From NCBI RefSeq assembly GCF_000426645.1, contig NZ_AUFT01000001.1, positions 124,001 through 188,000 of the forward strand: a DNA stretch of 64,000 nt, read 5' to 3'. This stretch comes from Nakamurella lactea DSM 19367 (GTDB lineage Bacteria > Actinomycetota > Actinomycetes > Mycobacteriales > Nakamurellaceae). Below the pieces are notes generated by a model, which was not told where the DNA came from, made no database searches, and saw only the letters and a list, made by a program, of their open reading frames with translations. Shown here one piece after another: positions 11,116 through 60,320 of the stretch. The number at the start of each line of letters is the position of its first letter. Positions within the stretch are counted from its first letter, which is position 1. The position numbers and the translations under genes are program-made.

Positions 11116-11160
11116 GCTCCCCCGGCTGGACTCGAACCAGCAACCGTCCGATTAACAGTC
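11116..11160. repeat. attL core (displaced 3' end of tRNA-Asn)
   Basis: 45 bp identical to 60276-60320, running from the discriminator end of the tRNA into the anticodon loop. After one mismatch four further bases match, then the sequences diverge. This copy lacks the 5' half of the tRNA and cannot give a functional tRNA. It is the original host 3' end left behind by insertion. Confidence 0.95.
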
Positions 11161-11229
11161 AGAAGGTTGGGCCGTCCAGATGTATCATTCATAGGCTCCC
11201 ATCAGGCAAAATGTCTACAGGGCGCTACG

Positions 11230-11267
11230 GGGTCCCGTGGTAACCTATGGGTCCCTGAATGGGTCCC
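11230..11267 (+). promoter_or_regulatory. Candidate integrase arm-type sites, left side (three GGGTCCC repeats)
   Basis: GGGTCCC occurs at 11230-11236, 11249-11255 and 11261-11267, twice in the longer form ATGGGTCCC or TGGGTCCC, between the attL core and the integrase start. Two more copies lie on the phage side of attR (60184-60190, 60195-60201), in the same orientation. Tyrosine integrases of this type bind core and separate arm sites; the assignment is inferred from placement and repetition. Confidence 0.5.
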
Positions 11268-11299
11268 CGGCCTCACCAGCAACCAAGGCGGTAACAGTC

Positions 11300-12523
11300 A
11301 TGGCGGTGTACGAAGACGCGAACGGTGTGTGGTGGGCGAAGATCGACGCGGGCTACACCAAGAGTGGCGGCCGGCGCAGGATCAAACGCAGCGTCAAGCC
11401 CAAAGGCGAGAAGGGCAAGAAGGCCGCCGAGGTCGAGGAACGCAAGCTGCTGCGCGCGAAGAACGAGGGCACGCTCACGATCAAATCCACGAAGGTCAAG
11501 GCATGGGCCGACGAGTGGCTGGAGCGGCAGGCATCACGCGTCCGGCCCAAGACGTGGCTCGGCTATCGGACCACCGTCAGCTACATCATCCCGACGATCG
11601 GTCACAAGGATCTGGATAAGCTCACTCCGGCCGATGTGCGGGCCGTTGCTGCCAAGGTCAAGGCCGATGGAGGGAACTCGACCACGGCGCGCGGCCACCA
11701 GACTGTCACCGTCAAGATGCTGCGCGATGCACTGGCCGAGGGTCACAAGGTTCCGGCCCCTGTCTTTGTGGTGGAGCTGCCGAAGATAGCGACGAACGAT
11801 CGAGATGCGATCCCCGGTGACGATGGCCGCGCGCTACTCGCCACCGCAGCCCAACTCCCCGACGGATCCCGCTGGGTCGCCGCGCTGCTACAGGGCATGC
11901 GTCAGGGTGAGTGTCTGGGGCTGACGTGGCAGTGTGTCGACCTCGCACGCAACACACTCGACGTGTCTTGGCAGCTACAGGCGCTCCCCTACGCCCACGG
12001 CTGCGACCCGAAGTGTGGCCGCAAGTTCGGCGGCGATTGCCCGCAACGGTTCCTCCAGGTGCCCGATGGATACGAGTACAGGATCCTGTACGGCGCGGTC
12101 TGCCTCGTGCGCCCCAAGTCCAAGAGCGGCAAGCGCATCATCCCGCTCGTGCCCTGGATGGCCGCCGCGCTCCGAGGATGGAAGCGTGAAGCGCCGGCCT
12201 CGCCGCACGATCTCGTGTGGCCCGACGCGACAGGCGAACCGCGTGACCCCGACGACGACCGAGCCGTATGGAAGGCCCTACAGGACGCCGCGAAGGTAGC
12301 GTTACCCGAAGGCCGCCACTGGCACCTGCACGAAGCGCGGCACACCACCGCGACGCTGCTCCTGGAGGCCGACGTGGATCCCCAGACCGTCATCGCCATC
12401 ATGGGACACGCGTCGATCGTCACGTCCCGCGGATACCAACACGTGCCGCAGGCATTGGCCCGGCAGGCGTTGGAGCGGGTAGCCGAGCGGTTGGGATTGC
12501 CCTCGGGTGAAACCGCCACATGA
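11300..12523 (+). CDS. int: Tyrosine-family site-specific integrase
   Basis: 407 residues from ATG 11300. A GTG 63 nt upstream would place coding sequence over the candidate arm sites and is less likely. The N-terminus has the three-strand arm-binding fold (VYEDANGVWWAKIDAG), followed by a SAM-like core-binding domain and the catalytic domain with Arg201 (GMRQGECLGL), a Lys in the PKSKSGKR beta turn, His344 and Arg347 (HEARHT), His370 (MGHAS) and the nucleophile Tyr379. A Cys-containing insert (about 235-250, GCDPKCGRKFGGDC) is common in actinobacteriophage integrases and might bind metal. The enzyme integrates and excises the phage at tRNA-Asn. Confidence 0.95.
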   Translation: MAVYEDANGVWWAKIDAGYTKSGGRRRIKRSVKPKGEKGKKAAEVEERKLLRAKNEGTLTIKSTKVKAWADEWLERQASRVRPKTWLGYRTTVSYIIPTIGHKDLDKLTPADVRAVAAKVKADGGNSTTARGHQTVTVKMLRDALAEGHKVPAPVFVVELPKIATNDRDAIPGDDGRALLATAAQLPDGSRWVAALLQGMRQGECLGLTWQCVDLARNTLDVSWQLQALPYAHGCDPKCGRKFGGDCPQRFLQVPDGYEYRILYGAVCLVRPKSKSGKRIIPLVPWMAAALRGWKREAPASPHDLVWPDATGEPRDPDDDRAVWKALQDAAKVALPEGRHWHLHEARHTTATLLLEADVDPQTVIAIMGHASIVTSRGYQHVPQALARQALERVAERLGLPSGETAT

Positions 12524-12535
12524 CGTCGCGATCAG

Positions 12536-13042
12536 CTACGACACGATCCCGATGATGATGGCAATGGCGATGGCCGTGAAGACCACGATGTAGGCCCAGT
12601 CGCTCGGGAGTAGCGGGTTCTTCCCGGCCGCCTTGCGCTCCTTGCGACGCCGCGCCTTGTCGTCGGTGATCGCCTTCGTGGCGGCAGCTGTTCCGAGGTT
12701 CGCGCCATTGACCGTGCCGCCCTTGGCGATCGTGTTGATCCCGGCCGCGAACTTGCGTGCATCGTTCGACAGCTTCGGGTCAACGCGCATCGCCATCGAG
12801 TACTCGGGAGCGTCGACCAGGATGTACAGCTCGCGGTTGTCCTTCTTCTTCTGCCACGCCAGCGCGAAGACTCCGGTCAGCAGGATCCGGGACGCGGTGA
12901 TCCGCTTGTCCAGGTTCCCGGCACTGTCCACCGTGGCAACGGCGCCTTCCAGCGACCCGCCCTGGCCGGCACATCGGATCGTCTTCGCATCCGTGTTCAG
13001 CGTCATCACGCCATCGAGCGTCTTCAATGGCCATTGCGCCAT
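12536..13042 (-). CDS. Tail-anchored membrane protein of the lysogeny cassette (PH-like domain suspected)
   Basis: 168 residues from ATG 13042, with AAAGGAAG upstream. The first ~110 residues look like a beta-rich domain (alternating strands around TLDGVMTLNTD, ITASRILLTGVFALAWQKK and RELYILVDAP) ending in a helix, reminiscent of bacterial PH-like domains. A charged Lys/Arg linker follows, then a C-terminal transmembrane helix with Ile/Ala repeats and only two residues after it. It is the last gene of the leftward repressor operon, converging on the integrase. Genes in this position are usually expressed in the lysogen and often act in superinfection exclusion or host modification; that role is inferred from position only. 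Confidence 0.65.
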   Translation of the reverse strand: MAQWPLKTLDGVMTLNTDAKTIRCAGQGGSLEGAVATVDSAGNLDKRITASRILLTGVFALAWQKKKDNRELYILVDAPEYSMAMRVDPKLSNDARKFAAGINTIAKGGTVNGANLGTAAATKAITDDKARRRKERKAAGKNPLLPSDWAYIVVFTAIAIAIIIGIVS

Positions 13043-13461: not shown

Positions 13462-13770
13462 TCACCCCGCCTCTCCCCCGTTTGCGTCATCATCGTCAAC
13501 CCACAGCACCTCCGAGCGCGCCATCAACGCCTCGGCCTGCTCCACAACCTCAGACATCGTGACCCCAAGGGCAGACGCGTAGGCCCACGCCTTGTCGATG
13601 CTCAGCGTCCGAGAGTTCTGGCTCTCCATGTTCGAGGTCGTCGTCCGTGAGATCTCACCTGGCGACGTGCCAAGTCGGGTTGCCAACTCCCGGCCGCTCA
13701 CGCCTAGTTCCTTCATCAGCACTGTCACAGCCAGGCGCACGTAGCGCTCGTACAACCGGTCGTCGTTCAT
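13462..13770 (-). CDS. HTH phage repressor (immunity repressor)
   Basis: 102 residues from ATG 13770. A helix-turn-helix of the XRE/Cro type is visible (VSGRELATRLGTSPGEISRTTT), followed by TLSIDKAWAYASALGVTMSEVV, the usual C-terminal extension of short repressors. No ribosome binding site precedes the ATG; instead a TACTCT hexamer ends 7 nt upstream, as for a leaderless mRNA. The protein is divergent from the Cro-like gene across a region with repeated ACCGATCTGG elements. An upstream in-frame extension overlapping those operators was rejected. It would maintain lysogeny by blocking the rightward early promoter. Confidence 0.8.
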   Translation of the reverse strand: MNDDRLYERYVRLAVTVLMKELGVSGRELATRLGTSPGEISRTTTSNMESQNSRTLSIDKAWAYASALGVTMSEVVEQAEALMARSEVLWVDDDDANGGEAG

Positions 13771-13775
13771 GATCA

Positions 13776-13888
13776 GGAGAGTACAGATCTGGCGTACTAG
13801 ATACCGGAACGGGTGACGGAATCCGCCGATCGGGTGATTAACCGATCTGGTGTTGTTCAGAACCGATCTGGGGTCTACAGTAACCATC
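13776..13888. promoter_or_regulatory. Divergent immunity-switch promoters with three ACNGATCTGG operators
   Basis: Rightward promoter: TTGTTC (13853-13858), a 17-bp spacer, TACAGT (13876-13881), then 7 nt to the Cro ATG, so the transcript should be leaderless. Operators: ACCGATCTGG at 13841-13850 and 13862-13871, 21 bp or two helical turns apart, straddling the -35 box. A variant, ACAGATCTGG (13784-13793), lies just upstream of the leftward -10 (complement of 13778-13783), suggesting that the repressor controls its own gene. Leftward -35 is weak. Confidence 0.65.
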
Positions 13889-14125
13889 ATGGTTAACCAG
13901 ACGGCAGCGCTGCTACAGGTCGTGCAAGCCGAAGTTGCCCGGTCGGGTCGGAGTCAAGCCGACTTGGCCGCCGCTTCTGGAATCAATCGCGTCACGTTAG
14001 GCCGCCGGCTCAACGGCTCGATCCCGTTCACCTGGGACCAGCTGTATGCCCTCGGCCGTGCGCTCGGAGTGACCCCACTCAGGTGGTTCGCCGAGATCGA
14101 GGCTGCACAGTCGCAGCCGTCCTAA
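13889..14125 (+). CDS. Cro-like HTH DNA-binding protein
   Basis: 78 residues from ATG 13889. An XRE-type helix-turn-helix is evident (RSQADLAAASGINRVTLGRRLNG) followed by the conserved helix DQLYALGRALGVTPLRWF. It is the first gene read rightward from the switch, opposite the repressor, and its ATG coincides with the predicted transcription start. By position it would act as Cro, turning down the repressor after induction; binding to the ACCGATCTGG elements is likely but not shown. Confidence 0.8.
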   Translation: MVNQTAALLQVVQAEVARSGRSQADLAAASGINRVTLGRRLNGSIPFTWDQLYALGRALGVTPLRWFAEIEAAQSQPS

Positions 14126-14735: not shown

Positions 14736-14932
14736 GCGCGCCGACCAAGTGGGCGGTTCTCAGCGAGAACTCCACCGGCTACCGCAGTACCAGCCTGTAT
14801 GGACCGTACAGAGATCTCAGCATGGCCATCGCCCAGGCCGAGAGCTACGCGGCGGACTGGGATGGCTCGAACCCCCGCCGATACGCCGTCGTTGAACTGG
14901 TCGAGCACTACATCACGGAGAGCACCCGATGA
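14732..14932 (+). CDS. Hypothetical early protein
   Basis: 66 residues from GTG 14732, coupled to both neighbours by 4-nt overlaps. It resembles small phage proteins that begin with a W-x-V-L-x-E-N strand and contain an amphipathic helix (MAIAQAESYAADW). Function unknown. Confidence 0.6.
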   Translation: MSAPTKWAVLSENSTGYRSTSLYGPYRDLSMAIAQAESYAADWDGSNPRRYAVVELVEHYITESTR

Positions 14933-15123
14933 CCGCGCCGAAGCTGTTCCTCACACTCCCCGAAGCTGTTGCGGCAACGGGTATGAGTCGGGAGCAGATC
15001 AAGAAGTACATCCACACTACGAATCCGAACGATCACCTACCGGCCAAGAAGCTGGACAACGGCCGCTACCTGATCAAGGTCACCGTGTTCAACGAGTGGT
15101 TCGAGCGGCAGGCAGACGCATGA
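14929..15123 (+). CDS. Excisionase/MerR-like helix-turn-helix protein
   Basis: 64 residues from ATG 14929. TLPEAVAATGMSREQIKKYIH is a typical HTH_17/excisionase start: a winged helix reading like the beginning of MerR proteins, with the wing KKLDNGRYLIKVTVFNEW. Such small proteins either bend DNA for integrase-mediated excision or regulate transcription. Its early position after the Cro gene suits an excisionase (recombination directionality factor), though the second HTH protein at 29680 is a rival. Confidence 0.65.
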   Translation: MTAPKLFLTLPEAVAATGMSREQIKKYIHTTNPNDHLPAKKLDNGRYLIKVTVFNEWFERQADA

Positions 15124-16885: not shown

Positions 16886-17847
16886 CCGCCGCAGAAGTAG
16901 ACCCATTGCACCCTTGCCCTGAATCCGTGTCGGTCGTCTCCGGTCACCGTGAGGACTGGCTGGCGAAGCGCTCCACTGGCATCGGCGGCTCCGACGTGTC
17001 GGCGATCCTGGGCATGAACAAGTACTCCAGCCCCCGCGACATCTGGCTGTCGAAGACTGGGCAGGGCAAGGACGCTCACTCGTGGCCGATCATGCGGGGC
17101 AACGCACTGGAGCGCCCACTGCTGGATTGGTTCGCCGAGCAGACGGGCCGGGCGGTTGCGTCTCTACCCATGCAGAGGAACGTCGAGCGGCCTTGGATGC
17201 TCGGGTCGACTGATGGGATCTCCGGCGACGGGATCCTGGAAGCGAAGACGGCGAGCTACTGGGTGGGACGGCATGACTGGGCCGACGGCATCGCGGACCA
17301 CGCCGAGATTCAGATCCAGTGGTACATGGCCGTTACCGGTCTCACTCATGGCTGGGTGATTGCGGCCCTGGGCGATGACGATCCGGTGATCAAGCCTGTG
17401 CAGCGCGACCAGAAGCTGATCGATGTGCTGATCGATGCGGCCGAAACCTTCTGGGTGCACAACGTTCTCGGCGAGGTCGAGCCTGAGCTGACGTGGCTGG
17501 ATCGCGGCACCGTCGCCGACGAGTACCCGACCGTTGAGCGTCACCGGGTGGACGGCTCGGCCGAGGTGGACGTGCAGATCACCACCCGTCAGTGGGCGGC
17601 CGACGAGATCAAGCGGGTCACGAAGATCAAGGACGCCGCCGAGGCCGAGATCATCCAAGCCTTGGGCGACGGCGACCACCTTGTGATCGACGGCCAGGTC
17701 GCCGCCACCCGCAAGGCGCGGAGCACCACCAGGTTCGACCGTTCCGCCGCCGAGGCTGACGGCCTGGACCTCACCCCGTACATGAACACCACCGAATCCC
17801 GCGTGCTCCGCATCCCCGCGAAGCGCGCCCCCTGGAAGGAAATCTGA
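16882..17847 (+). CDS. YqaJ-family viral recombinase (lambda-exonuclease-like nuclease)
   Basis: 321 residues from GTG 16882. The N-terminal signature RSTGIGGSDVSAILGMNKYSS and the downstream D-G-ILEAKTAS (D-x-E-x-K) are the hallmarks of YqaJ nucleases of the PD-(D/E)XK superfamily, and QIQWYMAVTG is the conserved glutamine helix. It would resect double-strand ends 5'-3' to provide single strands for the RecT annealing protein encoded two genes downstream. Together they form a phage recombination system analogous to lambda Exo/Beta. Confidence 0.92.
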   Translation: MTAAEVDPLHPCPESVSVVSGHREDWLAKRSTGIGGSDVSAILGMNKYSSPRDIWLSKTGQGKDAHSWPIMRGNALERPLLDWFAEQTGRAVASLPMQRNVERPWMLGSTDGISGDGILEAKTASYWVGRHDWADGIADHAEIQIQWYMAVTGLTHGWVIAALGDDDPVIKPVQRDQKLIDVLIDAAETFWVHNVLGEVEPELTWLDRGTVADEYPTVERHRVDGSAEVDVQITTRQWAADEIKRVTKIKDAAEAEIIQALGDGDHLVIDGQVAATRKARSTTRFDRSAAEADGLDLTPYMNTTESRVLRIPAKRAPWKEI

Positions 17848-18554
17848 TGGGCTGCGACATTCACCTGTACACCGAAGTGCAGAGCGACGATGGAACCTGG
17901 CGCACCACAACCGAACCAGTGGTCGCGGACGCTGGGACGGAGGACGAATACACCAGCCTGGAAGCTACGTTCCGCGGGCGAAACTACGACCTGTTCGCCA
18001 TCTTGGCTGGCGTTCGAAATGGCCGCGGCTTCGCCGGTACCGATCTCGGGGACCCGACCGTGCCGATCTCCGAACCCCGCGGGATTGCCGACGATGCATC
18101 CGAGCAATACCGCGCCGAGTCGGACCGGTGGGGCGTCGACGGCCACTCGCACAGTTACTTCACCCTGACGGAGTTGCTGCGGCACACCTGGACCGAATCG
18201 ACTACAACGCACCGGATGTGGGTGCGACGCAAGAAAACCGCGTCCGCGATGAGCCAGTACCTACTCAGTCAGGGACTCGATGACCCTGACAAATTCGCGG
18301 CCCGGATGCAGGAGATCTTTCAGTCCACCGGGGAAGACGGATACCGCTATCTGGAGAACTGGGAGGCCGAGGGTTGCGGTCGCTCCAGTGAAGGCCAGGG
18401 TGCATCTGGCTGGCGCACGATTCAGTGGACGACCAATCACCTTGAGTCGGCCGGTTCGAGTTGGTCGAAGTTCCTGGTGTCCCTGTGCTCGCTGGCTGCG
18501 ACCTACGGACTGACCAACGACCAGGTCCGCATCTCCTTCTTCTTCGACAACTGA
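17847..18554 (+). CDS. Phage protein of the MGCDIH-start family, unknown function
   Basis: 235 residues from ATG 17847 (TGATG overlap). The opening MGCDIHLYTEV is a very conserved start seen in many phage proteins of unknown role, followed by YDLFAILAGVRNG and FTLTELLRHTW. The position between exonuclease and annealing protein suggests a link to recombination or replication, but I know of no demonstrated activity. Confidence 0.7.
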   Translation: MGCDIHLYTEVQSDDGTWRTTTEPVVADAGTEDEYTSLEATFRGRNYDLFAILAGVRNGRGFAGTDLGDPTVPISEPRGIADDASEQYRAESDRWGVDGHSHSYFTLTELLRHTWTESTTTHRMWVRRKKTASAMSQYLLSQGLDDPDKFAARMQEIFQSTGEDGYRYLENWEAEGCGRSSEGQGASGWRTIQWTTNHLESAGSSWSKFLVSLCSLAATYGLTNDQVRISFFFDN

Positions 18555-18565: not shown

Positions 18566-19387
18566 ATGGCATCGAATCTCGCAGCCCGCGCCGCCGAACA
18601 GGTCGAGCAGCAGACTGCACCGAACCGTCCGCCGACGATCAAGGAACAGATCGGCCGGATGGAATCGCAGTTCGCGCTGGCTATGCCTCGCGGCTCGGAG
18701 GCGGCGCAGCTGGTGCGTGACGCGATCACCGCGATCAACACCAACCCTCAGCTTGCCGAGTGCACGCCGGCTTCGGTGCTCGGGGCTTTGATGACGTGCG
18801 CGCAATTAGGGCTACGCCCAGGCGTTCTGGGTCACGCCTGGGTCCTGCCGTTCCGGTCCAAGGGCGTGATGCAGGCGCAGCTGGTGATCGGCTATCAGGG
18901 CCTCGTTGAGTTGGCCCACCGCACCGGTCAGGTCGCATCCTTGATCGCCCGGGAGGTCCACGAGCGCGACCACTTCGACGTGGACTACGGCCTCGCAGAC
19001 TCGTTGATCCACAAGCCTTTGCTCAACGGCGACCGCGGTCCCGTCACCGGGTACTACGCCATCGTCAAGTTTAAGGGTGGCGGCCACTCGTTCATCTACG
19101 CCAGCAAGGCCGACGTCGAGGCGCACCGCGACAAGTTCTCCAAGATGAAGAGCTTCGGTCCGTGGGTCGACAACTTCGACAGCATGGCCTTGAAGACGGT
19201 CGTGCGGATGCTGGCCAAGTGGATGCCCAAGTCCACCGAGTTCGCCAACGCAATCAGCGCCGACGAGGGCGTGCGGGTCGACTACTCCCCCACCGCCGAC
19301 GTCGCGCAGGCAACCGAGTATGTGCAGCCGCAGCTGGAAGAGGCACCGGTCGAGGGCGTCGTCGTCTCCGAGGGTGGCGAGTCCTGA
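18566..19387 (+). CDS. recT: RecT-family single-strand annealing protein
   Basis: 273 residues from ATG 18566, with GAGAGG upstream. The RecT core is clear: SVLGALMTCAQLGLRPG, HAWVLPFRSKG, LVIGYQGLVELAHRTGQV, GYYAIVKFKGGGHSFIY and KTVVRMLAKWMPKS. RecT forms rings and filaments on single-stranded DNA and anneals complementary strands, working with the YqaJ exonuclease. The C-terminal 40 residues are acidic and probably disordered. Confidence 0.95.
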   Translation: MASNLAARAAEQVEQQTAPNRPPTIKEQIGRMESQFALAMPRGSEAAQLVRDAITAINTNPQLAECTPASVLGALMTCAQLGLRPGVLGHAWVLPFRSKGVMQAQLVIGYQGLVELAHRTGQVASLIAREVHERDHFDVDYGLADSLIHKPLLNGDRGPVTGYYAIVKFKGGGHSFIYASKADVEAHRDKFSKMKSFGPWVDNFDSMALKTVVRMLAKWMPKSTEFANAISADEGVRVDYSPTADVAQATEYVQPQLEEAPVEGVVVSEGGES

Positions 19388-22765: not shown

Positions 22766-22974
22766 GCCGGCTAGTGAGCGGCGGCCCGTGGACGGCAAGG
22801 AGTCAGCTGGTCGATGTCCTGCGCCGGATCACAGACGATGCGCAATCCGATGCGCTGGTCGATGCTTTCGAGGCAGAGATTCACGCCGCCATCCTGCGGG
22901 CCGCCAGTCAAAGAGCCTTCGCAGCAGCCGCTGCCGCCGCTGATCGCCTGCGGGCTGGGGAAGGAGACCAGTGA
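22762..22974 (+). CDS. Small helical protein upstream of the methyltransferase
   Basis: 70 residues from ATG 22762, Ala-rich helices, ending in an overlap with the methyltransferase start. Function unknown. Confidence 0.5.
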   Translation: MSRLVSGGPWTARSQLVDVLRRITDDAQSDALVDAFEAEIHAAILRAASQRAFAAAAAAADRLRAGEGDQ

Positions 22975-47807: not shown

Positions 47808-47809
47808 CG

Positions 47810-48934
47810 GTGCAGACTTCGCGGCCGGACCTGCTACAGGGTTCGGGCCGGCCAGTGGTTACCGCCAACGCGTGGCGTGGTGGTCGGTGTGTGGCTCGGG
47901 GTTTGCAGATCACTGACGGCTCGTTGAAGATCACGGCAGGCCAGTCGGTCCGCTCGGCTCTATCGCTGACGATCGTTGATCCGACGGGGAATCTGCGGCC
48001 GACGGCTGATGGTCCGCTGTCTCCGTACGGCTCGGAGATCGAGCTGCGGGGCGGATCTGCCCAGGGCACGGTTCCGCTCGGCTGGTATCGGATCGGTTCG
48101 GCTGATCCGACCGAGGGTTACCGGGTGTACGAGTCGCCTATCGACGGCGCGGTCACGTACGTATCGACGGGCGTCACGGTCACACTGTCCGGTTCGGATC
48201 GCGCCGAGAAGGTGCGGCTTGATCTGCTGGTGAACGGCGAGCAGCCGTCGAAGCCAACGGTTCTCGCTGAGATTGCCCGCCTGTTGCAGGGTGTCGTTCC
48301 GTGGCAGGCGCCGTCGATCGCTGACAAGTCGCTGACGGCAACAGCTGTCACGTACGACTCGGACCGGTTGAAGGCGTGCACGGATCTCGCGGCGCTGTTG
48401 GCGTGTGACTTGATCTTCACGCCGACGGGTGCCGCGACGTTGGTTCGTAAGGTGCCGCCGCTGGTGTCGGTGTGGGATCTGCCGCGCGGGTCGTCGTCGG
48501 TGATCGGTTCGATCCAGACGTCGATGTCGTCGGACGATGTGCACAACGCAGTGTTTGCGAAGGCCACGTCAACCGACTTCGCGGGGAACGTCACGCCGCT
48601 GATCGGCAAGGCGTACGACCGGACGGCGGGCATTGCGTGGGGCGGCCCGTTCGGTCGGGTGCCTTTGGTCATCGACGCGGATCTTGCCACCACTCAGGCG
48701 GACGTCGACAAGGCCGCCGCTGACGAGTTGGCGATGGAGCAGCGGTCTCGGTGGCTGATCGTCACCGTCCAGTGTGTCTGCAACTTCGCGCTGGAGGTCG
48801 GCGATGTGGTGTCGATTCCGATGCCGAAGCGTCGCGTGCTGGGTCAGGTCACGTCGGCTGACTGGCCACTCACTCAGGGTCCGATGACGATCACCGTCGC
48901 GGTGGATCCGTTCGTCTGGGAGAACGCGCAATGA
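47810..48934 (+). CDS. Minor tail protein, DUF5047-like (baseplate hub)
   Basis: 374 residues from GTG 47810. LKITAGQSVRSALSLTIVDPTGNLRP followed by EIELRGGSAQGTVPLGWYRIGSADPTE corresponds to DUF5047, and the later domain (KACTDLAALLACDLIFTPTG) to the hub of Tal-like proteins. It forms part of the tail tip contacting the cell. Confidence 0.75.
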   Translation: MQTSRPDLLQGSGRPVVTANAWRGGRCVARGLQITDGSLKITAGQSVRSALSLTIVDPTGNLRPTADGPLSPYGSEIELRGGSAQGTVPLGWYRIGSADPTEGYRVYESPIDGAVTYVSTGVTVTLSGSDRAEKVRLDLLVNGEQPSKPTVLAEIARLLQGVVPWQAPSIADKSLTATAVTYDSDRLKACTDLAALLACDLIFTPTGAATLVRKVPPLVSVWDLPRGSSSVIGSIQTSMSSDDVHNAVFAKATSTDFAGNVTPLIGKAYDRTAGIAWGGPFGRVPLVIDADLATTQADVDKAAADELAMEQRSRWLIVTVQCVCNFALEVGDVVSIPMPKRRVLGQVTSADWPLTQGPMTITVAVDPFVWENAQ

Positions 48935-49686
48935 GCAACCCCCTGGCCGATCTCCTGGCCGCTGGTCGTCAGGACGAGCGGAACACCGCCGCGGGTCCGC
49001 AACAGATCGATCTCGGCGTTGTCACTCAGGCGTCGCCGCTGCTGGTCCGTTGCGCTGGCTTCGATGAGCAGGTCATCGCGTTGGACGGCAAGACGTTCGC
49101 GCTGGGCGATTCGGTTCTGCTGGCACGGTTCCGCGGCGTCGCGTACGTGCTGGGCAAGGCTGGTGTCGGTTCTGCTCCGTCCGCGCCGTCGCCCGATCCG
49201 TTGTCGGGTTCGGATCAGTTCGCGGCTGTCGAGACGTTCTCGTGGCGGTCGGGTTACCCGTTCGCGTATCAGCAGGACGTGCGGCAGGGCGAGGGCGGCG
49301 TCTCGGGCGCGTGGACTGGCGCGTGGTTCTACCAGGGCGGGCCGGGTGCATCGCTTGCTGGGGTGACTGTTTCCTCGGCGTCTGTCCGTGTTGCTCGCGG
49401 CTCGGGTGGCACGCCGGGACCACAAGCGGCGCACCTGTTCCTGTCGTCGTCTGGGATCTGGCCGACTCCTGGTCAGTCCGCTCCGACAACTGTCGGCACA
49501 TCGGTTGACGTGATCCTGCTGCCGGGTGAGTTCAAGGACGCTGCAATTCCGTCGGCGTGGGCTCAGTCGATCGTCGACACAAACGCCGGACTGATGGTGT
49601 CCGGTACTTCACCGCAAGTGTTTCTCGCCGGTCGGGACTCTGATCCTGAGTCCGGCCTACTCCAAATCAACTGGGAGCGCGCATGA
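48931..49686 (+). CDS. Minor tail/baseplate protein
   Basis: 251 residues from ATG 48931. The N-terminal OB-like part (IDLGVVTQASPLLVRCAG, LGDSVLLARFRGVAYVLGK) is typical of tail-tip spikes; the C-terminal part is Gly/Ser-rich and beta. Coupled to both neighbours. Confidence 0.65.
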   Translation: MSNPLADLLAAGRQDERNTAAGPQQIDLGVVTQASPLLVRCAGFDEQVIALDGKTFALGDSVLLARFRGVAYVLGKAGVGSAPSAPSPDPLSGSDQFAAVETFSWRSGYPFAYQQDVRQGEGGVSGAWTGAWFYQGGPGASLAGVTVSSASVRVARGSGGTPGPQAAHLFLSSSGIWPTPGQSAPTTVGTSVDVILLPGEFKDAAIPSAWAQSIVDTNAGLMVSGTSPQVFLAGRDSDPESGLLQINWERA

Positions 49687-50285
49687 GTCAGACCACTGGC
49701 ACCGGTAAGCGGGTGCCGACGATCTCCGATGACCCGGACGTTCCCCGCGACATGCTGGCTTTGGCAACGGACATTGACCCGGACCTGGTGCAGCAGTTCG
49801 CTACCACCACGGAGCGGGATGCAGCGTTCTCGCTGGTCGCATTCAAGCTGTGTTTCGTCGGCGACGTGCTCTACCGCCGCCGCGGATCGTCCTGGTACGA
49901 GGTCCGCGACGCCGGACAGGAAGCAACATATCTGCACCAGGCGGCCAACGGAGTGAGCATCGGCAGTGGCGGCGGGACATTGGGCTACATCACAACACTC
50001 GCGGTCCCGGCCGTGTCCTGGCGTCGGGTGGTGACGGTGACCGCGCGAGCCTACTTCTCCAGTGTGGCAACGAATGCCGATCTCGTGCTCCGGACCGAGA
50101 CGACGGAGTTGTACCGGGCAAAGGCCGACACCGGCAACTCGGCCATCATCACGTACAGCGCCTATCACGAGGCAGGCGAACTCACCCGGTACAACGCGGT
50201 GATCACCAGCCCCGGCACCTGCGTCGCCACCAGTGATGGCCGGTATGCGGGCATGGACATCGTCGCTGTTCCCGCGGCGACATGA
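49683..50285 (+). CDS. Minor tail protein, receptor-proximal
   Basis: 200 residues from ATG 49683. The short N-terminal segment TTTERDAAFSLVAFKLCFVGDVLYRRRGSSW is a common opening of phage minor tail proteins; the rest is a beta domain with YHEAGELTRYNAVI. Function inferred from position. Confidence 0.6.
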   Translation: MSQTTGTGKRVPTISDDPDVPRDMLALATDIDPDLVQQFATTTERDAAFSLVAFKLCFVGDVLYRRRGSSWYEVRDAGQEATYLHQAANGVSIGSGGGTLGYITTLAVPAVSWRRVVTVTARAYFSSVATNADLVLRTETTELYRAKADTGNSAIITYSAYHEAGELTRYNAVITSPGTCVATSDGRYAGMDIVAVPAAT

Positions 50286-53709: not shown

Positions 53710-53892
53710 ATGACCGAACCCCGCCCCGATTCCGAAGAGCCGCAGGACGGCCACGCCCAGTACCTCCCGCAGGCCGACTGGGACGCAGTCAACGCGACTG
53801 CCGACGCCCTCGACAACCCCGAGGTCGACACCGACCAGGACGACCCGGATGCGCCGGAGGTCGATGTGGAGGTGATCCCCGATGGCGGGTGA
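53710..53892 (+). CDS. Small acidic protein upstream of endolysin
   Basis: 60 residues from ATG 53710, with about one third Asp/Glu, probably disordered. It overlaps the endolysin start by 11 nt and could couple its translation. Confidence 0.5.
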   Translation: MTEPRPDSEEPQDGHAQYLPQADWDAVNATADALDNPEVDTDQDDPDAPEVDVEVIPDGG

Positions 53893-54673
53893 TCTGGACG
53901 CCTACACCAGTTGGTCTCCGTCGCCGAACTTCTCCAGCCGCACCAGGTCTGACGATGCGGCGATCGTGCACACCGTGGAATCCGACCTGCGGGACTCGTT
54001 GGCCGTGTCGCTCGCCGGCCCGGACTGGTTCGGTTCGACCAAGGCCGGGACGTCGCCACACGCGATCGTCGGTCCGGTGTCCCGGGTCGGCACCGTGCTC
54101 CGGAAGTTCAAGTCGTGGGCTGTCGGCTCCCCCGGCAACAACATCACCTACAACATCGAGCAGACCGGGCGTGCTGCGTTCACCCGCGCACAGTGGTTGA
54201 CCACCGAAGGTCTCGCGCAGATCAGCAACGTCGCGCTAGTCATCGCCGACTGGGCGAAGGCCAAGGGCGCCACCAAGCCTCCAACCCGCGGCACCCGCGA
54301 CGAACTCCGCCGGTACGCGAACGGGGAGAACGTCGGTCTGCGCTACTACGGCCACGTCGACGTCACCGACACCCTCGGCGGCACCACACACACCGACCCC
54401 GGCGACCAGTACCCGTACGACGTTCTGCAAGCCCAGATCAACCTGCATTTCGGCATCGGGCCGACACCGACACCAGTCCAGGAGGACGACATGCCACTGA
54501 ACGCCGCCGACAAGGCGTGGATCCAGACCGCGATCACCAACACCATCCGCAAGGAAGCTGGTCCGGCCGTGTGGAGGACGAAGCTCAAGGGCGGGTTCCT
54601 GAACGCAGGTGCCGGTGCCGCACTGGCTGACGTGTTCACCCAGGTCCGCAAGCTCCGAGGTCAGGGCAAGTGA
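53882..54673 (+). CDS. lysA: Endolysin, N-acetylmuramoyl-L-alanine amidase (Amidase_2)
   Basis: 263 residues from ATG 53882. The zinc ligands of the Amidase_2 fold are apparent: His30 in IVHTVES and the C-terminal THTDPGD (His170), with SPHAIVGP as the usual middle strand. The last ~75 residues are a separate segment that may bind the wall. It degrades peptidoglycan once the holin opens the membrane. Note that the window has no lysin B gene. Confidence 0.85.
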   Translation: MAGDLDAYTSWSPSPNFSSRTRSDDAAIVHTVESDLRDSLAVSLAGPDWFGSTKAGTSPHAIVGPVSRVGTVLRKFKSWAVGSPGNNITYNIEQTGRAAFTRAQWLTTEGLAQISNVALVIADWAKAKGATKPPTRGTRDELRRYANGENVGLRYYGHVDVTDTLGGTTHTDPGDQYPYDVLQAQINLHFGIGPTPTPVQEDDMPLNAADKAWIQTAITNTIRKEAGPAVWRTKLKGGFLNAGAGAALADVFTQVRKLRGQGK

Positions 54674-54957
54674 ACGGCGACACGATCCCGTCGCTGATCA
54701 GGACCTGGGTCCCGCTGGCCGTGGCTTGGCTGGTCGGATTCCTTGCGTCACTGGGGATCCAGGTCGACTCCGGTACACAGGCGGCTCTTGCGTCTGCGAT
54801 CGGCGCCATCGTCGCGGGGGCCTACTACGCCGCCGTCCGTTGGGCCGAGCAGCGCTGGCCGTGGGTCGGCAGGTTCCTGGGCTCCACGAAGCAGCCGGTC
54901 TACGCAGACATGCACATTGCCCGCGTGAAGGGAGATCCGAATGGCCCTGCCAGCTGA
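54670..54957 (+). CDS. Holin
   Basis: 95 residues from GTG 54670, overlapping the endolysin stop. Two transmembrane helices (WVPLAVAWLVGFLASLGI and LASAIGAIVAGAYYAAV) with a short loop, then a basic cytoplasmic tail, the layout of class II holins of actinobacteriophages. It determines lysis timing. Confidence 0.8.
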   Translation: MNGDTIPSLIRTWVPLAVAWLVGFLASLGIQVDSGTQAALASAIGAIVAGAYYAAVRWAEQRWPWVGRFLGSTKQPVYADMHIARVKGDPNGPAS

Positions 54958-56011
54958 CCTACTCGCAGCGCACGTCACCGGCCGGGTGGTCGACGGAACG
55001 ACTGGCGCAGTCATCCCGATCATCGTGGAGTTCGTCCCGAACTTCACCGTCCTCAACGACCTGCCCGGCGGAACCGACCCTAGCGACACTGGCTCCATCG
55101 TCGTCGGATTCCCGACGCTGATCTCCGTCGACAACTCGACCGACCACACGAACACCGGCGGCATCTGGGACTACGCAGCAGATGCCGCGGACGGAACCTT
55201 CAACGTCACGCTTCTGGGCTACTCGGACGGCGTGAACGGTAAGGGCTACACGTACACCGTCACCGTGAAGCGCAAGTCCGACGGCACACAGCTCTTGTCC
55301 CCGTGGAATTTCAAGATCCAGGCGGGCGCAACCGTTGACCTGTCCGCGATGGCACCCGTTGCAGCTTCGGGCGGCTCGTCCGTCTCCGTCGTCAACGTCG
55401 GCGGAAGTGGTGGCGGCGGCACTGGGGCATGGGCTGACATCACCGGCAAGCCCGCATTCATCGCTGCGGGATCCACCGCCGCGGCTGCACGTACCGCGAT
55501 CGGTGCCACGGACCTCGTGCTAGGTACCAGTGCGACAACGGCGAAGGCTGGCAACGCGCACGACGCATGGTCGGACATCACGAGCAAGCCTGCCGTCATT
55601 GCTGCCGGTGCGGATCAGGCCGCAGCACGTGCCGCCATCGCCGCCGGGACTTCCAGCCTGGTCACTGGCACGACTGCCGGAACTGCTGCGGCGGGCAACG
55701 ATTCGCGACTGTCGGATGCTCGGGTGCCGCTCTCGCACACTCACGTCCCCACCGACATCACCGGATCCGGGACCGTCGGCCGCGCCGTCCTGGCCACCAG
55801 CACCGAGGGTGCTGCCCGTACTGCCGTGGGCATGTCGGCTCTCGGTTCATCCCTCGTGACCGCCGCCGATCAGGCCGCGATGAAGTCGATCATCGGCGTG
55901 ACCGACGGAGCCGATGGTGCACCGGGTGTCGGTGTCCTCGTTCTCGGTCCGTCCGACGCAGTCCCTGGCGGCACTGCTGCCAATACCGTCATCGTTCGAA
56001 AGGTCTCCTGA
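54941..56011 (+). CDS. Tail fibre protein with repeat region
   Basis: 356 residues from ATG 54941, preceded by GGGAGA. The N-terminal ~130 residues form a beta domain (HVTGRVVDGTTGAVIPIIVEFVPN). The middle holds repeats of W-[AS]-D-I-T-x-K-P-A-x-I-A-A-G and AAAARTAIGA type, as in trimeric fibre shafts, then LSDARVPLSHTH. The end is a short Gly-rich cap. It likely binds the host surface. Confidence 0.78.
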   Translation: MALPADLLAAHVTGRVVDGTTGAVIPIIVEFVPNFTVLNDLPGGTDPSDTGSIVVGFPTLISVDNSTDHTNTGGIWDYAADAADGTFNVTLLGYSDGVNGKGYTYTVTVKRKSDGTQLLSPWNFKIQAGATVDLSAMAPVAASGGSSVSVVNVGGSGGGGTGAWADITGKPAFIAAGSTAAAARTAIGATDLVLGTSATTAKAGNAHDAWSDITSKPAVIAAGADQAAARAAIAAGTSSLVTGTTAGTAAAGNDSRLSDARVPLSHTHVPTDITGSGTVGRAVLATSTEGAARTAVGMSALGSSLVTAADQAAMKSIIGVTDGADGAPGVGVLVLGPSDAVPGGTAANTVIVRKVS

Positions 56012-56012
56012 C

Positions 56013-56366
56013 ATGCCCCTCAATGACACCGCCCTCAACTACGGGAATGCCGCGATCCAGGTCGACAAGCTGAAGTATGCGTCGCTGCATCTGAGCCTCC
56101 CGAATAGCTCCGGCAGTGGCACCACCTCAGCCGCCCGGAAGCTCATCGTCTGGGACACCGCCGCGAGTGGCGACATGATCGCCACCACCGATCTCCTGTT
56201 CACCGGCGGCGCATCGCTCGGGACTGTGGGATGGGTTGGATTCTGGGATGCAGGTCCGACCGGCGGCAACTTCATGGGCTACCTGTCCGTGACCGGCGAT
56301 GGTGCGTTCAATGCTTCGGGCGAGTACACGCTGACCGGCATCACCATCACCGGCACGGCGTCCTGA
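56013..56366 (+). CDS. Short tail fibre-like protein
   Basis: 117 residues from ATG 56013. MPLNDTALNYGNAAIQVDKLKYASLHLSLPNSSGSG and WVGFWDAGPTGGNFMGYLSVTG match a conserved type of small phage fibre protein. It presumably assembles with the neighbouring fibre. Confidence 0.7.
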   Translation: MPLNDTALNYGNAAIQVDKLKYASLHLSLPNSSGSGTTSAARKLIVWDTAASGDMIATTDLLFTGGASLGTVGWVGFWDAGPTGGNFMGYLSVTGDGAFNASGEYTLTGITITGTAS

Positions 56367-57757
56367 TGCGGCGCCAACTCGCGGTACTGATCGCGGGGGG
56401 CGCGCTGGTTCTGACGGGGGTCGGTGTCGCTGCTGCGGCTGGAACGTCGGCCGCGCCTGAGTGTGCTGGGCCGACCGATCCGTCATCCCTGGCGCAGGTC
56501 CAGGCATGGGAAGCGTGTCGCTTCGATGCGTTGCAGGCGGCCGTGTCCAAGCCGCCTGTCACCGTCGACCACACGACCACTGAGACCACGACCGAGGTCA
56601 GCGTCGTCACCGGCGCACCCACCACGGTTGACCGCACGGTGACGCAGACGGTTCCGACCACGGTCATGCAGACCGTCACGGCCAGGACCACGGTTCGCAC
56701 CACCATTCCCGGACCTACCGTCACTGTGACGGAATCGGGTGGGGTCACCGCACCCGAAACCTCCACGCCTGAACCGACTTCCGAGGCTCCGACCACCTCG
56801 ACCACCACGCCGACGTCGTCTGACCCTGTCCCCGCTGGTGATTGCGTCGGCGCCGCGAACACTCCCGGCGGTGCTGATCCTTGGGGCGGGTGCTGGCCCG
56901 GCGCGCAGAACACCGGCTACCCGCACGGACTCCCCGGCGACACCCGCGCGCCCGTCACATTGAAGGCGTACACCGGACCGACCACGATCCGATCCTGCGG
57001 CGTCGTCATCGATTCCAAGATCGTCCCGCAAGACCTGCTGATCGAAGCGGGCAACGGCACCAACCTCGACAAGCCCTGTGTCACCATCAAGAACTCGCTC
57101 GTCAAGGGCGTCATCTTCGCCGAGCAATCCAACTACGGACCGGTCTTGATCAGCGACACCGAGGTTGTACCCGATGGCCTGTCATGGTGGGAGAACATCG
57201 GCCGCAGTAACTTCCGGGCAATCCGCGTCAACTCCCACGGCTCGCAGGGTGTCATCAAGTGCGACCAGAACTGTGAGGCAATCGACTCCTGGGTGCACGG
57301 CATGGAAGTCGGCAAGTCCTACCACTACAACGCGTTCGGCGGCAACGGCACGAACGGGTTCCTGATCAAGCACAACTATGGGACGTGCGGCGACTGGTCC
57401 TCGACCGAGGCCGGCCTGACCGGTGACGCCGGCTGCTCTGCGGTGATCGGCTTCTACGGCGACTTCGCGCAGAACCAGAACATCACCATCACTCGCAATC
57501 ACCTCGCCTCCACATTCGCGGGCGACCAGGACCGGCAGGCGGGCTACTGCATCAACCCCGGCTACTACCCCGGCAAGCCCTACCCCGACACGAAGAACAT
57601 CAGCGTCACTGACAACGTGTTCGGTCGTGGCGGTTCCGGCAAGTGTGGCGTGTTCGGGCCGAGCAACAGCCTGAACGGCGTGGGCAAGCCGAACGGAAAC
57701 GTGTGGTCCGACAACCGCTACGACGACGGGACGCCGATCGCTCGCGTTGAGGAATAG
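56366..57757 (+). CDS. Secreted right-handed beta-helix protein with Thr-rich linker
   Basis: 463 residues starting in a TGATG overlap. A clear signal peptide (RRQLAVLIAGGALVLTGVGVAAAAG) is followed by a Thr/Val/Pro-rich linker (about 60-155) and a C-terminal ~300-residue domain with the rung pattern of a parallel beta-helix (CVTIKNSLVKGVIF, GPVLISDTEVV, FLIKHNYGTCGDW, NITITRNHLAS). Pectate-lyase-like spikes have this fold. A Sec signal on a phage protein in the fibre cassette is unusual; it may be exported by the lysogen or degrade a surface polymer. Confidence 0.75.
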   Translation: MRRQLAVLIAGGALVLTGVGVAAAAGTSAAPECAGPTDPSSLAQVQAWEACRFDALQAAVSKPPVTVDHTTTETTTEVSVVTGAPTTVDRTVTQTVPTTVMQTVTARTTVRTTIPGPTVTVTESGGVTAPETSTPEPTSEAPTTSTTTPTSSDPVPAGDCVGAANTPGGADPWGGCWPGAQNTGYPHGLPGDTRAPVTLKAYTGPTTIRSCGVVIDSKIVPQDLLIEAGNGTNLDKPCVTIKNSLVKGVIFAEQSNYGPVLISDTEVVPDGLSWWENIGRSNFRAIRVNSHGSQGVIKCDQNCEAIDSWVHGMEVGKSYHYNAFGGNGTNGFLIKHNYGTCGDWSSTEAGLTGDAGCSAVIGFYGDFAQNQNITITRNHLASTFAGDQDRQAGYCINPGYYPGKPYPDTKNISVTDNVFGRGGSGKCGVFGPSNSLNGVGKPNGNVWSDNRYDDGTPIARVEE

Positions 57758-57786
57758 CCCGCCGCCGACTAGCTGATTGGAGCACC

Positions 57787-60174
57787 ATGCCCACCCATTC
57801 GATCTTCGGCGCATCCCCGCCACCCGGTACCCAGGTCGCCGCCGATGATGGCCAGCCGATCTGGGTAGGCAACACGTTCTACACCTACGGATCCGGCGCA
57901 GCTGGCTGGCGTTGCTACGGCGGACGGCTCTACATCGCGCCCGGCAACGTCGCATCCATGCCCGCCACCGTGACCGCCGCCGTGTGGAACAACACCACCC
58001 GCACGGCGAACAACCTGGACGCGACACCACTCGATACCAAGACCGTCACGATCCCGGCAGGCGGCGGCTGGGTTGAGTGGACGTGGACCACGCCCATCAC
58101 CATCACCGCGGGCCAAGTGGTGATGATCGGCTACACCGGCGGCACCAAGTACCTGTCGTCGCCGAGCCCGACCAACTCGTTCATCCCAGCATCCGACAGC
58201 TCAACCCTGGTGATGACCGACGGCGTCAACGCTGGCCCGGGACTCGACCGCACCTACTACCGGTACGGCACCAGCGCGATCGTCTGGCTGACCGACACCA
58301 GCGCGTCGCTGTGGGGCGTCGACATCCTGGTCGACGAAGGCAGTGGCCCGGCACCTACGACGGGGTCCGCGTCAGGTTCGATCGGCTGGGTTGGTACCGC
58401 CACCGGCACCGCGATCACTTCGGCTGGCGGCGCTGCGTCCGGGTCCATCACTTGGGCTGGCACGGCCACCGGCTACAAGATGCCGCAGGGCGCCGCGTCC
58501 GGCTCAGTCTCCTGGGTGGGCCGGGCGACTGGTCCGAACTCCGGCCGCACCATCGCGCAGGAGAACGAGCTGACCGGTGCACCTTCGTCCGAGTGGGAGA
58601 TCACCGGCGCCGGGGACTACGACAATGTTGGGTTCCCGCGCCAGTTCTCGTCCAATGTCGGCGAAACCGTCGAGTTCTCCTGCACCACCGACGGCGGCGG
58701 CGTGGTCCTCGACATCTACCGCATCGGCTACTACGGCGGCGACGGTTGGCACAAGGTCACAAGCCTGGTCAACACCGCGATCACGCAGCCGACACCGACG
58801 ACGATCCCGAGCAGCAATGGCGGGATCAGCTGCTCGAACTGGTCGGTCACCGCATCCTGGGACATCCCCTCCGATGCGACGACCGGCCTGTATGTCGGCG
58901 TCTACCGCAACGCTGCTGGCAACGATGCGAGCTACATCCCATTTGTAGTTCGCGACGATGCACGCCAGGCCGACATCATCATCAAGACCTCGGAGACCAC
59001 CTGGGCGTTGGCCTACAACTACTACGGCGGCCCGGCTGCACCACTGGCCGGCAAGAGCCTGTACGGATCCGGCGGCCCACTCGGTGACATCACCACCCGC
59101 GCGCAGGCAGTCAGCTACGACCGGCCCGTCGTCACCCGGCAAGGCGTGACGCAGACCTACTGGCTTGCGTGCGAGGCCCCGATGATTCGTTGGGCCGAAC
59201 GGATGGGCTACAACGTCAAGTACGTTGCTAGCCGTGACCTTGACGATGACCCCAGCCGTATCGCTGGGGCCAAGATCCTGGTGTCGTCCGGTCATGATGA
59301 GTACTGGACGACTGGCATGCGGGACACCGTCGAAGCGTTCCGCAACTCCGGCGGCCACGTCCTGTTCCAGTCTGGCAACGAGGTGTTCTGGCGCACGCGG
59401 CTCGACTCCACCGACCCGAACGTGATGTGGTGTTTCAAAGACACCCAGGACGGCCCGGGCGGTCACGACGGCGGCACCGCGATCGACCCAGTGTTCTGGA
59501 CCGGCTCATGGTCAGACACCCGCTGGGTCGGCCGCAAGCCCACCAACACCCTCAATGGCACGTACTTCCGGATGAACGGCGTCAACGACAAGACGGCGAC
59601 ATTCGACCACACGGCCGCCTACGCATCACACCCGATGTGGCGGAACACCGTGCTCGCATCCGGCTCGTCCTTCTCGGTCGCCGGGATCATCGGATTCGAG
59701 GCCGACGAGTATGACCCGCCCGCCGGGATCAACCCCGTCCGGCTCGGGCAGACCATCGTCACTGGCACCAACATCAGGGCCGACGACAACGGGGAGTTCT
59801 ACACCCTGCCCGGCAACATCGACTGGGGCATCTGCTCCCAGCGTAGATCGTCTGGGGCCGTCGTCATCGGCTTCGGAACCTGCCAATGGTCCTGGGGACT
59901 CGACGCAACCCACGACCGCGGCAGCAACGTCGCCAACCTCAACATCCAACAGGCGGAGTACAACATCCTCAGAGACCTCGGAGCCAACCCGGCGACCCCA
60001 CACTCGGGGATCGTCACCAGCTCGCCGGCCGCACTCACCGCGTACGGCACGGCACCCACCGCAGTCCCGCAGTGGTCGCTGTGGAATGGGTCCGCCGAGG
60101 TGCCACTCACCCTCGCCGGAGTGTGGGACGGCAGCACCATCGTCGAAGCCACCGCAACCGAGATCACCACCTGA
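57787..60174 (+). CDS. Large tail-associated protein: DUF4082-like domain, W-G-x-A-T-G repeats, N,N-dimethylformamidase-beta-like domain
   Basis: 795 residues from ATG 57787. Residues about 1-180 resemble DUF4082 (SIFGASPPPGTQVAADDGQPIWVGNTFYTY; WVEWTWTTPITITAGQVVMIGYTGG). Three repeats of ASGS[IV]xWxGxATG (about 190-255) form a linker. The remaining 530 residues match the N,N-dimethylformamidase beta-subunit-like domain (FSCTTDGGGVVLDIYRIGYYGGDGWHKV; ILVSSGHDEYWTTGMRDTVEAF; GNEVFWRTRL), which contains an amidotransferase-like fold. No signal peptide. Likely a structural enzyme acting on a host surface amide or glycan; substrate unknown. Confidence 0.78.
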   Translation: MPTHSIFGASPPPGTQVAADDGQPIWVGNTFYTYGSGAAGWRCYGGRLYIAPGNVASMPATVTAAVWNNTTRTANNLDATPLDTKTVTIPAGGGWVEWTWTTPITITAGQVVMIGYTGGTKYLSSPSPTNSFIPASDSSTLVMTDGVNAGPGLDRTYYRYGTSAIVWLTDTSASLWGVDILVDEGSGPAPTTGSASGSIGWVGTATGTAITSAGGAASGSITWAGTATGYKMPQGAASGSVSWVGRATGPNSGRTIAQENELTGAPSSEWEITGAGDYDNVGFPRQFSSNVGETVEFSCTTDGGGVVLDIYRIGYYGGDGWHKVTSLVNTAITQPTPTTIPSSNGGISCSNWSVTASWDIPSDATTGLYVGVYRNAAGNDASYIPFVVRDDARQADIIIKTSETTWALAYNYYGGPAAPLAGKSLYGSGGPLGDITTRAQAVSYDRPVVTRQGVTQTYWLACEAPMIRWAERMGYNVKYVASRDLDDDPSRIAGAKILVSSGHDEYWTTGMRDTVEAFRNSGGHVLFQSGNEVFWRTRLDSTDPNVMWCFKDTQDGPGGHDGGTAIDPVFWTGSWSDTRWVGRKPTNTLNGTYFRMNGVNDKTATFDHTAAYASHPMWRNTVLASGSSFSVAGIIGFEADEYDPPAGINPVRLGQTIVTGTNIRADDNGEFYTLPGNIDWGICSQRRSSGAVVIGFGTCQWSWGLDATHDRGSNVANLNIQQAEYNILRDLGANPATPHSGIVTSSPAALTAYGTAPTAVPQWSLWNGSAEVPLTLAGVWDGSTIVEATATEITT

Positions 60175-60183
60175 TGCGAAAAT

Positions 60184-60201
60184 GGGTCCCGGCCGGGTCC
60201 C
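60184..60201 (+). promoter_or_regulatory. Candidate integrase arm-type sites, right side (two GGGTCCC repeats)
   Basis: GGGTCCC at 60184-60190 (within ATGGGTCCC) and 60195-60201, 75-92 bp inside attR, same orientation as the three copies inside attL. Confidence 0.5.
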
Positions 60202-60230
60202 GAGCCTCTTCGTAGTGGTCATGAATCGAA

Positions 60231-60270
60231 CAAGCCCCCCATCTGTTTCGGCAGATGGGGGGCTTGTTTT
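60231..60270 (+). terminator. Strong intrinsic terminator at the end of the late operon
   Basis: A perfect 15-bp stem (60231-60245 with 60252-60266; loop TTTCGG) followed by TTTT. It closes the late operon immediately before attR and shields the antisense-oriented tRNA-Asn from phage transcription. Confidence 0.95.
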
Positions 60271-60275
60271 CGTAC

Positions 60276-60320
60276 GCTCCCCCGGCTGGACTCGAACCAG
60301 CAACCGTCCGATTAACAGTC
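60276..60320. repeat. attR core (3' half of the restored tRNA-Asn)
   Basis: 45 bp identical to 11116-11160. The phage supplies this copy, so the tRNA gene stays intact after insertion. Confidence 0.95.

Follow-up and report, generated by a model that had tools for sequence, protein, structure and literature searches.

What kind of element occupies positions 11116-60320 of a 64,000-nucleotide stretch of the Nakamurella lactea DSM 19367 chromosome (contig NZ_AUFT01000001.1, positions 124,001 to 188,000; the whole stretch is hereafter the window), and what does the last gene of that element encode? We found a complete-looking prophage of a presumed temperate siphovirus, lying in the Nakamurella chromosome between two copies of a tRNA-Asn core. 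Its last gene carries DMFA2_C, a domain with the N,N-dimethylformamidase fold (PF20254, of which we take DUF6605 to be the older name). The best explanation of the locus as a whole, and one that we consider probable, is a temperate siphovirus integrated at tRNA-Asn whose last gene encodes a likely tail protein with a possibly amide-hydrolysing DMFA2_C domain.

The ends of the element were examined by a repeat search of the window, by ARAGORN, and by a search of the genome (5,820,860 bp in 27 contigs, 98% complete) with a 171-base query taken from the tRNA region, which together placed the following two features:

11116-11160, minus strand: left copy of the attachment (att) core, corresponding to the 3' part of tRNA-Asn (45-bp exact repeat; partial match of the tRNA region)
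60276-60349, minus strand: tRNA-Asn(gtt), whose 3' part is the right att core at 60276-60320 (ARAGORN, repeat search and genome search)

The two cores form an exact 45-bp direct repeat that bounds the prophage on both sides with a repeat-to-repeat spacing of 49,160 bp, and one of them completes a tRNA gene: the right copy is the 3' part of the tRNA-Asn, and the left copy is a displaced tRNA fragment. A chance origin of the repeat was ruled out, as it is the sole exact direct repeat of at least 24 bases in the window besides a short array of 9-bp period near 8.9 kb. Across the genome, the tRNA-Asn region had four matches, namely the full copy, the left fragment (contig 1, 135116-135165), one 80% partial match, and a terminator hairpin on the other strand. 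The GC content is 0.641 within the prophage, compared with 0.703 and 0.700 in its flanks. An earlier note on this DNA had proposed these same ends, together with repair of the tRNA by the phage copy and a circle of 49,160 bp; the 45-bp repeat and its coordinates are borne out, and the ends, the repair and the circle length are all supported.

The gene that lies immediately inside the right end is of greater interest:

57787-60174, plus strand: last gene, a fusion protein of 795 amino acids (Pfam PF20254, E 5.8e-80)

Its product begins with a fibre-type domain (residues ~2-187), continues through repeats of the ASGSIxWxGxATG type, and ends in DMFA2_C, which scored 269.9 bits against a curated cut-off of 27. 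No PHROG matched this protein at E 0.001, no match at E 1e-5 was found in 50,697 phage records, and no PHROG matched any of the three members of the viral DMFA2_C family that we tested. Residues 2-187 align with the C-terminal end of the gene directly upstream of DMFA2_C in two viral contigs, L063 (32% identity, E 1e-18) and L064 (E 2e-12), and match the corresponding upstream gene of a third contig, L067, weakly (E 0.002). In both L063 and L064, DMFA2_C is a separate gene, directly downstream of this one and not fused to it. The simplest reading of these alignments is that the last gene would represent the domains of two adjacent tail genes joined into one. The upstream gene of L063 also matched Pfam DUF4082 at E 3.8e-4, below the cut-off, and a Pfam scan of the last gene's own N-terminus gave no match, so that 'DUF4082-like' is a weak label for this domain.

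To place the last gene among other viruses, IMG/VR was scanned with the last-gene protein, yielding 5 loci, and with a three-sequence alignment, yielding 10 loci, the prophage itself being included in each set; chosen neighbours at each locus were then scanned against PHROG. A PHROG-called structural gene was present inside the fetched flanks in all of the other members of the viral branch described below (9/9), the structural call in L063 being a fibronectin-type match alone. The gene just upstream was tail- or fibre-like in 6 of these 9 (L063, L064, L065, L067, L068 and L069), with several of the upstream calls resting on immunoglobulin (Ig) or fibronectin repeats. In L067, L068 and L069/L052, the DMFA2_C gene has a tail-like gene on one side and the tape measure gene on the other. 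It follows a 994-residue tail-fibre gene, downstream of a portal gene, in L064; a fibronectin/DUF4082-like gene in L063; and a fibronectin/Mtd_N gene in L065/L050, where a terminase gene lies ~4 kb downstream. The flanks of L071 contain portal, minor head and tape measure genes. Locus L118 (Actinoplanes siamensis NZ_BOMW01000066) carries major capsid, major tail and tape measure genes in its flanks, and is therefore read as a prophage. The DMFA2_C genes of L118 and L071 are 70% identical at the DNA level over 2.5 kb, and blastn at E 1e-10 found nothing else shared between the two 21-kb stretches, a pattern suggesting that the DMFA2_C gene moves between phages.

Viral and cellular DMFA2_C proteins were compared in two trees, one of 39 sequences (9 viral and 30 cellular, the latter being 29 matches with a locus plus the host copy) and one of 119 rows, in which these 39 were joined by the best 80 of 407 loci from a genome scan. 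We dropped L066/L051, taken to be the same virus as L065/L050 on the basis of equal match values, and L053, a 5.25-kb fragment. In the 39-sequence tree, one branch splits the 9 viral from the 30 cellular sequences with support of 100/99. In the 119-row tree, a branch with a support of 99 in the Shimodaira-Hasegawa-like approximate likelihood ratio test (SH-aLRT) unites the nine viral rows with L118 and with no other row; one branch further out (support 89), L160 is included as well. Because the tree is unrooted, this separation is best described as a split rather than as a proven clade.

The cellular bacterial proteins share the domain with the last gene, at 34-43% identity, but differ from it in their separate tree branch (100/99) and in their length, with frames of at least 1,000 amino acids in 66/80 (the best 80 of the 407 loci, L118 included, some of the shorter frames being cut by contig ends). 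By best segment, identity to the last gene did not exceed 40% among the best 80 of the 407 loci. A DMFA2_C match at E 1e-60 or better occurred in 31 of 298 genomes, the window's own genome included, with identities of at most 41% when the query itself is set apart. The host encodes a DMFA2_C protein of its own, of 1713 amino acids and with a signal-like start (locus L081, 8952-14090, on contig 13 of ~77 kb), which groups with the cellular copies and apart from the prophage gene; we speculate that this protein hints at a suitable substrate outside host cells.

We next turn to the predicted fold. An AlphaFold2 model of residues 251-795, built with 36 sequences, reached a mean predicted local distance difference test (pLDDT) score of 89.9, and was relied on in preference to an earlier model of the whole last gene, which was poor at the N-terminus (mean pLDDT 60.6). 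The six best solved entries found by VIA-align were N-acetyl-(R)-beta-phenylalanine acylase and dimethylformamidase, with Z of 31.2-32.3 over 413-429 residues (acylase: Z 32.3, 413 residues, 2.8 A; dimethylformamidase 6lvb: Z 31.2, 429 residues, 3.0 A), followed by GH42 enzymes at Z 16.9. Foldseek, run on the earlier full-length model, also ranked the acylase and dimethylformamidase first, in nine rows. The modelled domain thus matches the fold of dimethylformamidase domains I and III (Z 31-32). Among viral models, nothing convincing emerged from a structure search (best E 7.2e-4, with a template-modelling score (TM-score) of at most 0.23 among the matches listed).

Five residues of the last-gene protein, Y410, Y426, H503, E505 and N531, are identical in 119/119 sequences, and four of them, Y410, H503, E505 and N531, align with Y399, H519, E521 and N547 in dimethylformamidase (numbering obtained by counting along the profile alignment). 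In the published enzyme description (PMC7686228), Y399 and E521 are iron ligands, H519 is essential, and N547 lies in the active site. Of the iron site (Y399, Y440, E521) and H519, equivalents of Y399, E521 and H519 are present in the prophage protein, whereas Y440 has no aligned counterpart. Compared with the large subunit of the Paracoccus N,N-dimethylformamidase (6lvb; PMC7686228), the prophage domain shares the fold and the four aligned residues, but is fused to a fibre-type domain and encoded in a phage late gene cluster.

Combining these results, we propose the following course of events. By analogy with known integrases, the tyrosine integrase would recombine the attP site of the phage with the tRNA core in such a way that the copy brought by the phage restores the tRNA. 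Excision would yield a circle of 49,160 bp. The rightward late genes would run from terminase to the last gene, whose product would be a tail-associated protein composed of an N-terminal fibre-type domain, a repeat linker and the C-terminal DMFA2_C. Placed at the tail tip, this domain would hydrolyse an amide of a host surface polymer, such as an N-acyl group, while the phage adsorbs. Other phages use tailspike hydrolases and deacetylases on the host surface. The steps of this proposal differ in strength: the gene neighbourhoods point to the tail, and the protein is likely to be located in the virion; the fold and aligned residues make it possible that the DMFA2_C domain is catalytic, and cleavage of an amide on the host surface would be a further step based on these same features. 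More tentatively, the virus-side proteins may constitute a tail family in which a dimethylformamidase-type metallo-amidase, encoded as a separate or a fused gene, strips N-acyl groups from a host surface polymer at adsorption, and which has passed unnoticed in phage annotation. Our literature search found no link between the dimethylformamidase fold and phage tail proteins; the literature on Nakamurella prophages was left unchecked.

Several observations weigh against this proposal. Y440, the other tyrosine that binds iron in dimethylformamidase, lies in an unaligned insert, and Y426 aligns to Y435, five residues off, so that the metal site is only putative; furthermore, the Y426 column holds a histidine in the acylase in place of the tyrosine. 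We rejected filing the last protein as a dimethylformamidase on these three grounds. Dimethylformamidase also needs a small subunit (PMC7686228). Invariance by itself counts for little, with 24 columns invariant in the 119 rows and only five of them matched to the proposed site. Among the viral loci, the state 'viral' takes two changes in the 119-row tree, where L071 pairs with L118, unless L118 is counted as a phage; and L070, the weakest of these loci, has a twin-arginine-like start and a portal gene ~7.4 kb away, with no tail gene called beside DMFA2_C. Within the prophage itself, the gene before last (56366-57757) has a signal-like start, possibly for secretion, and the holin and the excision factor are candidates only.

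The alternative that best survives is a tail protein whose DMFA2_C domain only binds the surface polymer and is non-catalytic. Binding without cleavage is common among fibre proteins, one metal ligand of the family prototype (Y440) is unaligned, and with 24 invariant columns conservation need not imply catalysis; the equivalents of Y399, H519, E521 and N547 are nevertheless invariant in 119/119 sequences, and we regard a purely binding role as a serious but rather unlikely prospect.

The remaining gene content of the prophage was examined as well. Genes were called with a codon-usage gene finder, and PHROG scans were run on chosen genes. Between the repeats 83 genes were called, at a coding density of 0.91; gene call no. 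88 fits the plus strand better, as 56013-56366, and gene call no. 54 may be spurious. The main features are as follows:

11300-12523, plus strand: tyrosine integrase, 407 amino acids (PHROG integrase, E 4.8e-57)
13462-13890, minus strand: candidate immunity repressor, HTH_3 (PHROG regulator, E 7e-6; Pfam HTH_3, E 2.5e-6)
13889-14125, plus strand: candidate Cro-type regulator, the Cro role being a presumed one (PHROG transcriptional repressor, E 7e-14)
14929-15123, plus strand: candidate excision factor (weak Pfam HTH_17 match, E 1.7e-5, below the Pfam cut-off; no PHROG match)
16927-17847, plus strand: RecE-like exonuclease (PHROG, E 1.8e-73)
17847-18554, plus strand: gene without assigned function between RecE-like and RecT genes (PHROG, E 2.5e-42)
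18566-19387, plus strand: RecT (PHROG, E 6e-88)
22971-24542, plus strand: DNA methyltransferase (PHROG, E 9.7e-65)
26193-26612, plus strand: single-stranded DNA-binding protein, SSB (PHROG)
26662-27018, plus strand: replication initiator (PHROG)
27134-27580, plus strand: RusA-like resolvase (PHROG)
30779-37024, plus strand: head module, with small and large terminase, portal, VG15-type maturation protease, scaffold, second scaffold/DUF2190-type protein and major capsid (PHROG)
37214-41008, plus strand: head-tail adaptor and completion proteins, major tail protein and chaperone (PHROG, except for the chaperone)
39059-39571, plus strand: major tail protein (PHROG)
40436-41008, plus strand: tail assembly chaperone (named by position and frameshift extension; no PHROG of its own)
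40912-41295, plus strand: -1 frameshift extension of the tail assembly chaperone (PHROG tail assembly chaperone, E 9.7e-7)
41314-47025, plus strand: tape measure protein, 1903 amino acids (PHROG, E 8.8e-76)
47022-50285, plus strand: distal and minor tail genes (position 3' of the tape measure; PHROG tail protein for 47810-48934 alone)
53882-54673, plus strand: endolysin (PHROG, E 8e-26)
54670-54957, plus strand: candidate holin (position alone; its PHROG is without function)
54941-56011, plus strand: virion structural or fibre gene (PHROG)
56013-56366, plus strand: small structural gene (PHROG)
56366-57757, plus strand: protein of 463 amino acids with a signal-like start and a Thr/Pro-rich linker (sequence)
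60229-60268, no strand assigned: strong hairpin 3' of the last gene, a likely phage terminator (17-bp perfect arms; fold z -5.25)

The integrase adjoins one att site, is accompanied by repressor-type regulators, and contains MRQGE (200), HEARH (344), MGHAS (368) and RGYQH (377), which we take to be its catalytic motifs. A WhiB-like gene is also present (PHROG), and the head module has Pfam matches to VG15 and Phage_capsid_4. In the chaperone, a slippery heptamer, CCCTTTC (40951-40957), is in register for a -1 shift, and the second frame is open to 41295. The genes for terminase, portal, capsid, major tail protein, tape measure and endolysin are all open frames, and no interrupted structural gene was seen among the 83 calls. 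As regards a long non-contractile tail, no sheath gene was found among the PHROG matches of the chosen genes scanned, in which the 1903-residue tape measure and one major tail protein were seen. The earlier note's statement that all essential modules are present and open thus stands for the module set and its open frames, and falls short for the holin and the excision factor, which are candidates; the inducible phage that the note suggested would be a further prediction. A whole-looking prophage could still be cryptic or domesticated, failing to excise or to form particles through changes invisible in open frames; the weak calls of those two genes and the inversion of the tRNA block described below would fit such a state, which we consider improbable given the uninterrupted structural genes, the coding density of 0.91, the retained in-register slippery site, the integrase motifs and the identity of the two att cores.

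The context of the last gene bears on whether it belongs to the virion. From the endolysin to 57757, with the gene re-read at 56013-56366, each gene overlaps the next or is separated from it by 1 nt; the last gene, encoded among these tail or late genes, starts 29 nt after its neighbour. A scan of 55800-60420, restricted to the sigma-70 consensus, listed no promoter-like site, and a scan of the same region listed one terminator-like site on the minus strand and none on the plus strand; the hairpin at 60229-60268 is absent from that list, presumably for having too few T after the stem. Such chaining is weak evidence when taken alone, but is more in keeping with a late gene than with cargo that is expressed independently. 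The gene before last had no Pfam match and no match in the phage collection, and has three non-self relatives in viral contigs, at 32-36% identity. The products of these three relatives have a membrane- or signal-like start followed by a Pro-rich linker. That the last gene, together with 56366-57757, is instead lysogenic-conversion cargo, encoding a non-virion protein secreted or displayed by the lysogen and derived from a bacterial DMFA2_C, would agree with its place at the edge of the right attachment site (attR), with the signal-like starts of its neighbour and of the neighbour's viral relatives, and with the host's own 1713-residue protein, but is unlikely given that the last gene itself lacks a signal-like start and that its counterparts in L067, L068 and L069 sit between a tail gene and the tape measure, and host cargo was rejected as the first choice on tree placement on the virus side, apart from the host copy, on late-gene chaining, and on the lack of a listed promoter-like site.

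The prophage that we read as carrying this tail gene is present in IMG/VR as entry IMGVR_UViG_2524614512_000001 (48,875 bp), with which two proteins are 100% identical and which by position spans 11300-60174 of the window. Unlike the prophage as delimited here, the entry ends at the outer genes and leaves both att sites outside. When the 50,697 phage records were searched at the near-DNA level, 11116-36000 had short matches in 11 of them (Mycobacterium phages), and 36001-60320 had no match. The best terminase relative is that of Microbacterium phage Footloose (60%), and the best capsid relative that of Gordonia phage GMA4 (NC_030939; 60%). GMA4, an isolated phage, has the same order of head module genes, with identities of 60% for the capsid, 46% for the portal and 67% for the DUF2190-type protein, and its chaperone is annotated with a programmed frameshift; it differs in that only 7/83 prophage proteins match, in a comparison covering 27,231 of the 45,537 GMA4 bases. 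No close relative of the prophage was found that would allow selection to be measured. GMA4 and related actinobacterial siphoviruses are the closest known phages, and the prophage adds an ordinary new member to a familiar phage kind.

The chromosomal surroundings of the tRNA differ from those in the genus. Of 8 relatives examined, 7 were informative, and in all of these (7/7) the 3' end of tRNA-Asn faces homologues of genes 60977-63798, the last of which is by sequence presumably dnaG; in the window, it points away from them. Gene 3882-4385 likewise lies on the other side in the two relatives where it was seen. Because both the tRNA orientation and the side of this gene differ from the relatives, the tRNA-Asn/tRNA-Met block (11116-60568 of the window, with the prophage) is read as inverted relative to its flanking genes, whether or not the prophage was inside at the time. 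Between 4301-11200 and 60201-61300, no repeat of more than 12 exact bases was found in either orientation besides the att core. One relative, G006, carries a different insertion of ~12.3 kb in the same tRNA-Asn (locus L060, 3350-3426 and 15752-15807), with an integrase-like frame that is 28% identical over 217 residues, and the tRNA-Asn is thus used by more than one element.

These results give exact ends for a Nakamurella temperate phage, which makes the prophage a useful entry in its own right. The last gene is the weightier finding, as it suggests that tail-borne proteins sharing an amidase-like fold form a family, for which no PHROG (three members tested) and no match in the phage collection were found. 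The prophage places a member of this putative DMFA2_C tail family in a sequenced bacterium, where it can be tested, and, if the domain is catalytic, DMFA2_C would extend the chemistry of known tail enzymes.

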